Of a DNA stretch of 64,000 bases, positions 30,798 through 47,027 are shown piece after piece. The position numbers and the translations under genes were made by a program. The notes under the pieces were generated by a model. The model searched no databases. It had not been told where the DNA came from and saw nothing but the letters and a program-made list of their open reading frames with translations. Positions within the stretch are counted from its first letter, which is position 1. Each line of letters begins with the position of its first letter. The stretch is from Leisingera sp. S132 (GTDB lineage Bacteria > Pseudomonadota > Alphaproteobacteria > Rhodobacterales > Rhodobacteraceae), in the NCBI RefSeq assembly GCF_025144465.1, contig NZ_CP083553.1, positions 1,052,001 to 1,116,000 of the forward strand. The letters run 5' to 3'.

Positions 30798-30872
30798 GTG
30801 AAGGTCGAGTTTTGAGACCCATCCGAGGCGGTGCTAAAGTTACATTTTGTCTGTTTTGACCGGAGGGGATTG

Positions 30873-31211
30873 ATGGACGCCGAACCCTTGTACTTCAAGT
30901 GCAGTTGGCCCGAAGAGCCTCTGCCGCTTGGAGCGCCATCATGGATCTTCTATGAAGTTATTGAACTTACCGACGTGGTCACTCGTACAATCGAATTGTT
31001 CCCGAGCGGTTCCGCCATTCGAAACAGCATCAAGCTAGCCGAACGTGAAGGACCGGATTTGAGGACGCGGGAATTCAGATCTCTCGTGCACGGATCATTT
31101 CTTGGGTTCTCCAAACAGGGACTTGTTCAAATCTCGAAGCAAGAGTTCAATGCCCTATGGGAGAGTGCCGTTGATAAGCCGTGGCCGCCTGAAGCTGAAC
31201 TCCTCTGCTAG
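30873..31211 (+). CDS. Hypothetical protein, DUF6881-like
   Basis: A 112-residue protein. The pattern WIFYEVIELTDVVTRTIELFPSG followed much later by ISKQEFNALWESA is reminiscent of DUF6881, a small cytosolic family common in actinobacteria and scattered in proteobacteria, often near polymorphic toxin or immunity genes. I am not certain of the match. The ATG at 30873 has a strong GGAGGGG ribosome site. Codon use is more AT-rich than in the helicase upstream, which suggests an accessory gene. No toxin gene is recognisable next to it. Confidence 0.65.
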   Translation: MDAEPLYFKCSWPEEPLPLGAPSWIFYEVIELTDVVTRTIELFPSGSAIRNSIKLAEREGPDLRTREFRSLVHGSFLGFSKQGLVQISKQEFNALWESAVDKPWPPEAELLC

Positions 31212-33017: not shown

Positions 33018-33040
33018 AATACCTGTGCCGGAATCAAGAA

Positions 33041-33076
33041 ACGGCGGCGCCCAGGGAGGAGGAGGGGCACCGCCGT
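33041..33076 (-). ncRNA. CcsR-like small RNA hairpin, copy 4
   Basis: On the minus strand ACGGCGGTGC and GCGCCGCCGT form a 10-bp stem with one mismatch. The loop shows CTCCTCCTCCCT followed by GG. It is the last of four hairpins with the same loop sequence downstream of the DUF1127 gene. The CCTCC core can pair with Shine-Dalgarno-like GGAGG sequences, the feature that defines CcsR RNAs of R. sphaeroides. Confidence 0.7.
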
Positions 33077-33085
33077 TCTGTCAAA

Positions 33086-33117
33086 CACCGGGTATCAGGG
33101 AGGAGGAGACCCCGGTG
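33086..33117 (-). ncRNA. CcsR-like small RNA hairpin, copy 3
   Basis: On the minus strand CACCGGG and CCCGGTG form the stem, with CTCCTCCTCCCT exposed in an 18-base loop (GT before, GATA after). Confidence 0.7.
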
Positions 33118-33148
33118 ATCCAAACCCGGCTTTTGGCCGGTATAGGGT

Positions 33149-33182
33149 GCGGCGGCATCAGGGAGGAGGAGGATGCCGCCGC
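33149..33182 (-). ncRNA. CcsR-like small RNA hairpin, copy 2
   Basis: This is the most regular copy: a perfect 11-bp stem (GCGGCGGCATC with GATGCCGCCGC) holds a 12-base loop that is exactly CTCCTCCTCCCT. Confidence 0.75.
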
Positions 33183-33188
33183 AGAAGA

Positions 33189-33222
33189 CAGGCTCTTCTA
33201 AGGGAGGAGGAGAAGGAGCCTG
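33189..33222 (-). ncRNA. CcsR-like small RNA hairpin, copy 1
   Basis: On the minus strand CAGGCTC and GAGCCTG form the stem, extended by weaker pairs. The loop again contains CTCCTCCTCCCT. It begins 8 bases after the DUF1127 stop, so it lies in the same transcript. Confidence 0.7.
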
Positions 33223-33229
33223 ATCTCTA

Positions 33230-33439
33230 TCAGTTGTTCTCGTAGGCCGCCTGATAGGCGACGCGCTTGATTTCGGACCGGTTCAGGCCCAGGTCAGCCA
33301 GGTCGCGGGCGGTCAGCGCGGACAGCTCATTCACGGTCTGGCGGTACAGGCGGTAGCGGACGAATTTCACCAGCAGGCCATCCAGGAAGCCGAGCGGGGA
33401 TGCAAAGTTCACCGCGGAGATCTGTTGTGCTGCTGCCAT
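33230..33439 (-). CDS. DUF1127 protein, CcaF1-like
   Basis: A 69-residue protein with a C-terminal DUF1127 domain: FVRYRLYRQTVNELSALTARDLADLGLNRSEIKRVAYQAAYENN. The family is small, basic and arginine-rich. In R. sphaeroides the DUF1127 protein CcaF1, encoded just upstream of the sRNAs CcsR1-4, binds RNA and affects their processing; the same gene order is seen here. I chose the ATG at 33439 (MAAAQQISAV), with GGAACAG before it; a longer in-frame start is unlikely. In Rhodobacter the operon is driven by heat-shock sigma factors, and an RpoH-type promoter would be expected in 33440-33540, but I could not identify one firmly. Confidence 0.88.
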   Translation of the reverse strand: MAAAQQISAVNFASPLGFLDGLLVKFVRYRLYRQTVNELSALTARDLADLGLNRSEIKRVAYQAAYENN

Positions 33440-33547
33440 CGTTCTGTTCCTTCGTCTAACCGTCTCGTCGTGTGCCGCTGTGGCATTTCTTGAATGACAA
33501 TTTAAGGATATGCTGCGGATGCACAATCCCGCGCTTCGTCATTGCTG

Positions 33548-33748
33548 CTATGCGGCATATGCATGGGTGACGCAGGGTAGGCCTTTGTAATTGGACAAGA
33601 TTTTCGGCAGTCCGTTGCGCAGCTGTATAATTTCCGGGCAGGCCGCTGCGTGCAGCGCATAGGTCTTGCCGGTGCGGATTGACACATCCGCCGCCTTGCA
33701 GATGCGGCAAACGCGCAGTCCGGGTTCCCTGCGCGCCTGGGTGCACAT
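33548..33748 (-). CDS. Possible small protein with cysteine pair (doubtful)
   Basis: The gap between the DUF1127 gene and mrp (33440-33782) contains a 66-codon minus-strand frame with codon use like real genes here (mostly G or C in third positions). It contains the segment LRVCRICKAADVSIRTGKTY. There is no clear ribosome site before the ATG at 33748, and I know no relative. Without it, the gap holds only promoter sequence for the two divergent genes, including a TATAAT near 33631 on the plus strand. Confidence 0.25.
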   Translation of the reverse strand: MCTQARREPGLRVCRICKAADVSIRTGKTYALHAAACPEIIQLRNGLPKILSNYKGLPCVTHAYAA

Positions 33749-46862: not shown

Positions 46863-47027
46863 TCAAAGACCGATATCGCGCAACAGATGCTCCGGCAGGT
46901 GGCTCAGCCGCCTGCGGGCGAGCTGCTGGTCGGCAGCCTGGCTGGCGGGGGCGTTCTCGCGCGGGGGCGAAGCAAAAGTTCTGCTGATAACGTGCCAAAG
47001 GTTCATTTGTGAAAGCATTTCAGCCAT
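46863..47027 (-). CDS. Very small DUF1127 protein
   Basis: On the minus strand a 54-residue protein can be read: MAEMLSQMNLWHVISRTFASPP..., ending RRRLSHLPEHLLRDIGL. The C-terminal pattern is that of DUF1127, a family of short arginine-rich proteins linked to RNA metabolism and stress. AAGGA lies 8 bases before the ATG at 47027; ATGs at 47018 and 47006 are also in frame. The gene is convergent with the thiamine-binding-like gene and divergent from the LysR regulator. It is easily missed because of its size. Confidence 0.65.
   Translation of the reverse strand: MAEMLSQMNLWHVISRTFASPPRENAPASQAADQQLARRRLSHLPEHLLRDIGL

Follow-up and report, generated by a model that had tools for sequence, protein, structure and literature searches.

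A ccaF1-CcsR-type stress-RNA operon of Leisingera with a predicted LsrB/VtlR operator in its promoter

What kind of locus is formed by a short DUF1127 gene and the row of hairpins that follows it in Leisingera sp. S132, and what controls its transcription? We analyzed this locus within a stretch of 64,000 nucleotides of contig NZ_CP083553.1 (positions 1,052,001 to 1,116,000), referred to below as the window. A sequence-only reading had likened the locus to the CcaF1-CcsR system of R. sphaeroides in gene order, loop motif, and copy number. The most striking element of the promoter, a LysR-type box, was absent from that reading. It is the operator in the promoter of the array that is new here; the RNA family itself is known. 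The features of the locus are collected in Table 1.

Table 1. Features of the DUF1127-hairpin locus, with positions in the window.
Feature	Position	Strand	Basis
LsrB/VtlR-type predicted operator (LysR box) CATGCATATGCCGCATAGCAGCAATG, contains TGCA-N6-GCAT	33540-33565	minus	Genome-unique perfect match
Core promoter TTG-N17-CTTAAAT	33500-33526	minus	Conserved with variants in genus alignment
DUF1127 gene, ccaF1-like, 69 aa (stop included)	33230-33439	minus	PF06568; ATG position the same in 21/21 genus genomes
CcsR-like unit A	33144-33231	minus	Rfam CcsR1 RF02791 full length, 40.1 bits, below gathering score
Hairpin 1 (unit A, short), loop motif 33201-33212 CTCCTCCTCCCT	33189-33222	minus	Fold, covariation, shuffles
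Hairpin 2 (unit A, long, GC-rich), loop motif 33160-33171	33148-33183	minus	Fold, covariation, shuffles
Mini-hairpin CCGGC-CAAAA-GCCGG between units, without loop motif	33126-33140	minus	5 pairs, 100% of cells paired, 25 sequences
CcsR-like unit B	33036-33125	minus	Rfam CcsR1 RF02791 full length, 39.8 bits, below gathering score
Hairpin 3 (unit B, short), loop motif 33097-33108	33086-33117	minus	Fold, covariation, shuffles
Hairpin 4 (unit B), loop motif 33053-33064, U-rich tail	33039-33078	minus	Fold, covariation

The DUF1127 gene matches PF06568 with 51.7 bits (cut-off 23.3). The four-hairpin array lies 3' of its stop codon on the same strand, within about 190 nt (33039-33222, minus), and in all 21 genomes of the genus a DUF1127 gene is found directly upstream of the array, again on the same strand. 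In the window, a divergent mrp gene lies beside the locus, with uvrD on the same side and three ORFs between, as read from the translations. For reference, a C.-sphaeroides-like genome (G066) was used, in which 3 kb of one replicon is 99.6% identical to C. sphaeroides 2.4.1 plasmids. Its DUF1127 protein has 71 residues, the published length of CcaF1, and its locus adjoins a divergent mrp; one larger ORF farther out comes the end of uvrD (also read from translations). Since the domain, the gene order, the loop motif, and the neighbors all match this C.-sphaeroides-like locus, the sequence features identify the window locus as a ccaF1-CcsR ("cuckoo" or CIN1) operon in a Leisingera-like genome, a member of the published stress-RNA family, and the likeness in gene order proposed earlier stands. 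RNA binding by CcaF1 is one published role of the DUF1127 protein (PMC10253847), and a DUF1127 protein is reported to bind PhoR, with R. sphaeroides CcaF1 complementing an Agrobacterium mutant (PMC12501420); no sequence evidence here favors either role. A 26-residue PDB match between the DUF1127 protein and IcmE (E 2e-4), of which no stretch passed by itself, was set aside as chance. Elsewhere in the window, a weak DUF1127 match of 22.7 bits, below the cut-off and with an internal TGA, possibly marks a remnant DUF1127 gene (46863-46919, minus), and a 126-aa ORF (30831-31211, plus) has no Pfam match at E 0.001.

The 64 kb contain the 12-base loop motif exactly four times, only on the minus strand, with starts at 33212, 33171, 33108, and 33064. 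Of the shorter CCTCCTCCC, the window has 5 copies (0.91 expected), 4 of them in the array. In the 202-nt 3' region there are 4 hairpins with CCTCCTCCC in the loop, where 1000 dinucleotide shuffles gave a mean of 0.002 and a largest value of 1, and the MFE z-score of the same region is -7.6 (200 shuffles). Motif count and shuffles thus confirm the four hairpins with the same 12-base loop after the DUF1127 gene. Covariation in five helices was evaluated in 25 arrays, comprising the window, 20 same-genus loci, and 4 from neighboring genera. Standard pairs fill 96.7% of pair cells, compared with 94.6 in shuffles. Cells changed on both sides number 34 (10.2 in shuffles) and pairs with a double change number 10 (4.9), and for both measures 0 of 500 shuffles were as high; further pair types, at 24, are no more numerous than in shuffles (22.9; 152 of 500). 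All 25 rows have the core CCTCCTCCCT four times, and 21 of these retain four copies of the full 12-mer. Thus, both the stem pairing and the loop sequence of the array are kept. The conservation claimed for the loop is borne out: all 21 genus genomes, the window's own included, have the motif at the corresponding locus, so that its absence from close relatives, named earlier as grounds for refutation, does not hold. The stems had been described as all unrelated, which is not so, as CGGCGG is common to hairpins 2 and 4. Judging from its sequence, hairpin 4 is probably also a terminator; a terminator scanner that accepts loops of 3-8 only found none there. Next to hairpin 3 stands TGGATCACC (33114-33122, minus), which we take to equal the conserved 3' end of 16S rRNA. 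Of the 21 genus rows 12 have it, and none of the 4 from neighboring genera does; we take it as coincidence.

The Rfam model CcsR1 (RF02791) is 83 nt long and has a gathering score of 65.3. Since this model spans two hairpins and matches twice, the four hairpins make up two CcsR units. The covariance search that the sequence-only reading had called for gave two full-length matches, both of them below the gathering score. An RF02791 match is found in 166 of 199 family genomes, 8 of them over the gathering score, and in 1 of 14 control genomes, below it. With just 8 of 199 family genomes reaching 65.3, we do not take this score as defining the wider family. An ancient family-wide system had been suggested earlier, but the association is already in print: the CIN1 locus, a DUF1127 gene with hairpin RNAs, is reported as often found in alphaproteobacteria (PMC10253847). 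The family and wide distribution of ccaF1-CcsR loci are thus no discovery of this work. The match of the locus to alpha-r14/NfeR1 (RF02344) reaches only 39.8 bits, against a cut-off of 58.8.

Four CcsR RNAs, as in R. sphaeroides, were considered for the window and rejected because the unit is two hairpins. The spacing of the motifs alternates, with 38, 66, and 41 nt in the window and 37-41, 65-69, and 41-42 across the genus, and all 21 genus genomes have four hairpins. Among 39 loci from other genera that were chosen by protein similarity only (L052-L090), the arrays have 1 to 14 hairpins, and the number is even in 35; where the two-hairpin RNA model was used to choose loci, even hairpin counts are favored by that choice. 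Alternating spacing is not universal, since in the three Paracoccus arrays nearly all motifs lie about 40 nt apart. One array locus, from the box-site set described below, has 16 loop repeats. The array of the C.-sphaeroides-like genome (L132, G066:C4:690000-694800) has 14 hairpins and 7 CcsR1 matches, with five units near-identical, along with a separate terminator-like hairpin that lacks the full motif. For R. sphaeroides, four CcsR RNAs are named in print (PMC10253847). The unit number varies between relatives, and four CcsR RNAs is a feature of one species; the copy number had been held to be the same as in R. sphaeroides, and this must be dropped.

The loops CUCCUCCUCCCU are complementary to Shine-Dalgarno sequences, and by analogy with the work on NfeR1 and CcsR, the RNAs would pair with the ribosome-binding sites of target mRNAs. 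The predicted loop pairing energy is -9.4 kcal/mol with AAGGAGG and -24.2 kcal/mol with the 12-base complement, so extended targets would be favored. NfeR1, which has the same loops, is reported to silence ntrB by pairing at the initiation region, an effect lost on loop mutation, and CcsR1-4 are reported to target flhR. Alternatively, the hairpins could sequester ribosomes or an RNA-binding protein as decoys or sponges, instead of being antisense RNAs with defined targets. A loop that is repeated up to 14 times, and 16 times in one locus, exceeds the apparent need of target pairing. However, the reported silencing of ntrB through the NfeR1 loops and the reported targeting of flhR by CcsR1-4 speak against decoys, which we consider rather unlikely.

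Pairing with ribosome-binding sites leaves the question of what drives transcription. The core promoter may be RpoHII-like or sigma-70-like, and its sequence is compatible with RpoH-type control. Several relatives have CCTAAAT in place of CTTAAAT, and a sigma-70 scanner found no minus-strand site at the promoter. Above the -35 region stands the 26-bp predicted operator. Its pattern in the genus, CATGCNNNYGCYGCATRGCRGCAWTG, is perfect in 20 of 21 rows and has 3 mismatches in the remaining row; the C.-sphaeroides-like locus has CATGCAGACGCCGCATGGCAGCATTG as its upstream box. The TGCA-N6-GCAT within the operator is the LsrB site reported for the S. meliloti NfeR1 promoter (PMC10746234). Furthermore, the right half of the operator resembles the reverse complement of the reported Brucella VtlR site, CAATGCAGCCATGCA (PMC12595884). 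The window box has 11 of 15 bases in common with this Brucella 15-mer and differs at 4, and the likeness is stronger in relatives. An NtrC site was rejected as the identity of the box, as the published TGC-N11-GCA (PMC10746234) differs in spacing from the N7 found here.

The array loci in which the box was counted number 74 and include 15 of the same genus; the selection of loci by DUF1127 or CcsR similarity enriches for arrays. In 32 of these loci the fit to the pattern is perfect, in 62 it has ≤2 mismatches, and in 7 it has ≥4. TGCA-N6-GCAT is present in 62 of 74 against 0.25 in mononucleotide shuffles, and the Brucella 15-mer with ≤2 mismatches in 46 of 74 against 0. Shuffles of the box and of the LysR core keep base composition only, and counts over related genomes are not independent.

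The box is also specific across whole genomes. At ≤3 mismatches, the operator is the only match in the window (0.03 expected), and the entire genome has 4 box sites, with 0 for a backward control. The array promoter is the sole perfect match, and the second-best site, with 2 mismatches, stands after a LysR gene. A search of 61 family genomes, one per species, with a slightly shorter pattern and ≤2 mismatches yielded 122 sites, spread over 52 genomes, against 8 in a backward control. Of the 122, 36 are perfect, 19 have one mismatch, and 67 have two; the remaining 9 of 61 genomes have no site at this limit. Every one of the 36 perfect sites precedes a DUF1127 gene, an anti-SD hairpin array, or both, a fit that is partly by construction since the pattern was built from ccaF1-type promoters. 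Eleven of the 19 one-mismatch sites precede a DUF1127 gene and/or array, or 13 when two DUF1127-like ORFs recognized by eye are counted; 6 of the 19 have neither a DUF1127-like ORF nor an array. The regular expression used to find DUF1127 ORFs misses divergent ones. Six of the 67 two-mismatch sites were checked downstream, and 2 were positive. By position, 6 further two-mismatch sites follow the LysR gene (G000, G042, G051, G068, G075, G079). In the class outside the family, the longer pattern was found in just 15 of 52 genomes, and three of the 22 sites follow the LysR gene by position (G219, G283, G297). By eye, the class-level site at L297 precedes a DUF1127-like ORF and that at L292 an AbcR-like end.

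Seven DUF1127 genes of the Leisingera genome are over the Pfam cut-off. The core ATGC-N7-GCATRG is exact upstream of 3 of them and present with ≤1 mismatch upstream of 5, in either orientation and 197-229 nt upstream of the DUF1127 domain. In 2000 random 330-nt stretches of the window, it was found exactly in 0 and with ≤1 mismatch in 4.75%. These boxes recall, by analogy, the reported VtlR targets of Brucella, three DUF1127 genes and AbcR2, all under activation by VtlR (PMC12595884), and of Agrobacterium, where it is reported to activate abcR1 and the small gene atu1667. The LysR core box stands upstream of the DUF1127 genes at C1:350632, C1:351109, and C1:2895820, and these are followed by single, weaker hairpins with CTCCTCC/CCTCCTCCC loops (L121:1633-2216, L122:1521-1622). 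In seven loci (L166, L169, L170, L173, L182, L184, L185), box and array occur with no DUF1127 ORF visible to the regular expression; either the proteins are divergent or the gene has been lost from the array. A one-mismatch box at L257 (G079:C424:6500-8400) precedes a small ORF in which no DUF1127 likeness was seen by eye, and a box-like site at L288, in a 1.2-Mb alphaproteobacterial genome (G300), precedes a tiny basic ORF.

Which regulator would bind the box? The second-best site, at C1:1809444, lies just 3' of the single-copy LysR gene at C1:1808457-1809359, and a SorX/SorY Rfam match begins about 60 nt beyond it. At E ≤1e-60, each of 61 family genomes contains a single match to this LysR gene. 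Among solved structures, PDB 9hh1 is its best-scoring relative, with 245 bits against 98 for the next. Chain A of 9hh1 was identified as LsrB through cysteines 144, 236, 244, and 273, the positions reported for A. tumefaciens LsrB (PMC11975290). With this LsrB as query, one clear best hit was obtained in 17 of 17 family genomes (236-256 bits, compared with ≤132 for any other gene), and the hit is the LysR gene in all 15 of the 17 whose gene position was known. A class ortholog used as query finds the LysR in the Leisingera genome with 303 against 152 bits. No NCBIfam model is over its cut-off for the LysR among the 25 matches listed. These tests identify the LysR gene as the LsrB/VtlR ortholog. 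LsrB has been stated in a 2025 paper to be unique to Rhizobiales (PMC11975290), a statement contradicted by the orthologs in 61 of 61 family genomes examined, and the regulator has been called conserved in the class (PMC7486931).

The gene order reported for A. tumefaciens is trxB-vtlR-abcR (PMC7486931). TrxB is just upstream of the regulator in 25 of 28 class orthologs outside the family and beside it in 0 of 31 family loci; in the Leisingera genome, the neighbor of trxB is Lrp-like and not LysR-like, judged from its translation. The core ATGC-N7-GCAT was found after the LysR gene in 19 of 31 family loci and in 14 of 28 loci of the class; mononucleotide shuffles gave 0.04 and 0.06, respectively. 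With ≤1 mismatch, it follows in 29 of 31 and 19 of 28 (shuffles, 1.7 and 1.6) and is absent in 2 and 9, respectively. The full searched pattern, with ≤2 mismatches, stands after the LysR gene in 6 of 61 family genomes by position, as weaker copies. An Rfam scan for SorX/SorY covered 15 of 30 fetched LysR loci (L210 lies outside this set), and all 15 have a match after the gene, 11 of them over the SorX cut-off and 0 over that of SorY. In the C.-sphaeroides-like genome, SorY itself follows the LysR gene (115 bits, cut-off 111). No Rfam match to alpha-r15/AbcR was found at the sRNA after the LysR gene. This sRNA has an ACCTCCC stretch that is mostly unpaired in the predicted fold.

The HTH of the regulator is 75% identical to that of LsrB and the effector domain 33%. 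The four redox cysteines of LsrB are absent in 30 of 30 family orthologs; a cysteine at another position is present in 26 of 31 family orthologs, and 21 of 28 class orthologs have none. Because these four cysteines are absent, the redox-sensing model of LsrB does not carry over. The sequence comparison shows conservation of the operator and the DNA-binding domain but not of the sensor.

If the locus were a plain ccaF1-CcsR operon under RpoHI/RpoHII alone, the 26-bp block would be the site of another factor or an extended promoter element. Just such a promoter has been published for R. sphaeroides, where the ccaF1-CcsR operon is attributed to RpoHI/RpoHII, and the TTG-N17-CTTAAAT of the window is compatible with what has been reported of RpoHII preferences (PMC3441632). 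Nevertheless, the block stands above the -35 region, its variants recur after the LsrB-ortholog gene before a different sRNA, and it resembles the published LsrB and VtlR sites, so that we judge control by RpoHI/RpoHII alone quite unlikely. Lying between two divergent genes, the block might instead belong to mrp and not to the DUF1127 operon. This is very improbable, and the box was rejected as part of the mrp promoter, since its core recurs before other DUF1127 genes of the same genome (C1:351109, C1:2895820) and before sRNAs after the LysR gene, and the box precedes two arrays on one contig in G027. That the hairpins are a run of intrinsic terminators or repeats with no regulatory function is suggested by hairpin 4, which with its U-rich tail is terminator-like, but is scarcely credible when the loop core is kept in 25 of 25 sequences, the stems are compensated, and CcsR1 matches occur in 166 of 199 family genomes.

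As far as sequence can indicate, the promoter link to LsrB/VtlR is well supported, and it is most likely that this ortholog controls the array operon together with the sRNA. In the proposed mechanism, the ortholog (C1:1808457-1809359) would be bound at 33540-33565, atop an RpoH- or sigma-70-type core promoter. We infer co-transcription from this one promoter, giving a DUF1127 mRNA with two two-hairpin CcsR-like RNAs in its 3' UTR, as well as processing of the transcript and a stress response. The same regulator would also drive transcription of the SorX/SorY-type sRNA adjacent to its gene, along with several more DUF1127 genes. We hold it probable, with good confidence, that the locus is a ccaF1-CcsR operon whose RNAs pair with ribosome-binding sites and whose transcription is controlled by the LsrB/VtlR ortholog at this operator.

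A broader proposal seems to us likely as well, if a little less firmly so. There may be an ancient alphaproteobacterial regulon in which the LsrB/VtlR ortholog binds one type of operator before DUF1127-CcsR arrays and SorX/SorY, thereby co-producing anti-SD RNAs. The SorX/SorY sRNA beside the regulator would stand where AbcR stands in rhizobia. Because the DNA-binding domain and operator are kept throughout the class and the sensing domain and redox cysteines of rhizobial LsrB are not, the redox signal of rhizobia would be a later or different input. Among the papers listed in literature searches, none links CcsR, CcaF1, or SorY to LsrB/VtlR. Names from both sides were found together in PMC12501420, where LsrB is in the reference list, and in PMC6139387 (Salmonella). 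If the proposal is true, the well-studied stress RNAs of R. sphaeroides gain one testable switch, and CcaF1-CcsR, SorX/SorY, and AbcR/NfeR1 under LsrB, three separate stories, become one regulon.

How does the window locus compare with the systems already known? It is like ccaF1-CcsR1-4 of R. sphaeroides in the DUF1127 gene, the array with CCUCCUCCC loops, the mrp and uvrD neighbors, the upstream box, and the TTG of the -35 region. However, the window has two CcsR units, compared with four named there and seven in the C.-sphaeroides-like assembly. Furthermore, its last hairpin has a motif loop and probably doubles as the terminator, and the -10 element is CTTAAAT, whereas the C.-sphaeroides-like locus has CCCATGT. 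With NfeR1/alpha-r14 of Rhizobiales (RF02344), the locus has in common the anti-SD CCUCCUCCC loops, reported with variable stems in rhizobial sRNAs (PMC3927594), and the TGCA-N6-GCAT promoter site; NfeR1/alpha-r14 differs in having three hairpins on a promoter of their own. The LsrB/VtlR regulon of Sinorhizobium, Agrobacterium, and Brucella is similar in its orthologous regulator, the sRNA next to it, and the boxes before DUF1127 genes, but here a DUF1127 gene also has a CcsR array, and the Rhodobacteraceae regulator gene is not by trxB and lacks the redox cysteines of its rhizobial counterpart. Finally, SorX and SorY of R. sphaeroides (RF02784, RF02651) both match as models the sRNA after the LsrB ortholog, which is a second locus, apart from the window array and without the CcsR unit structure.
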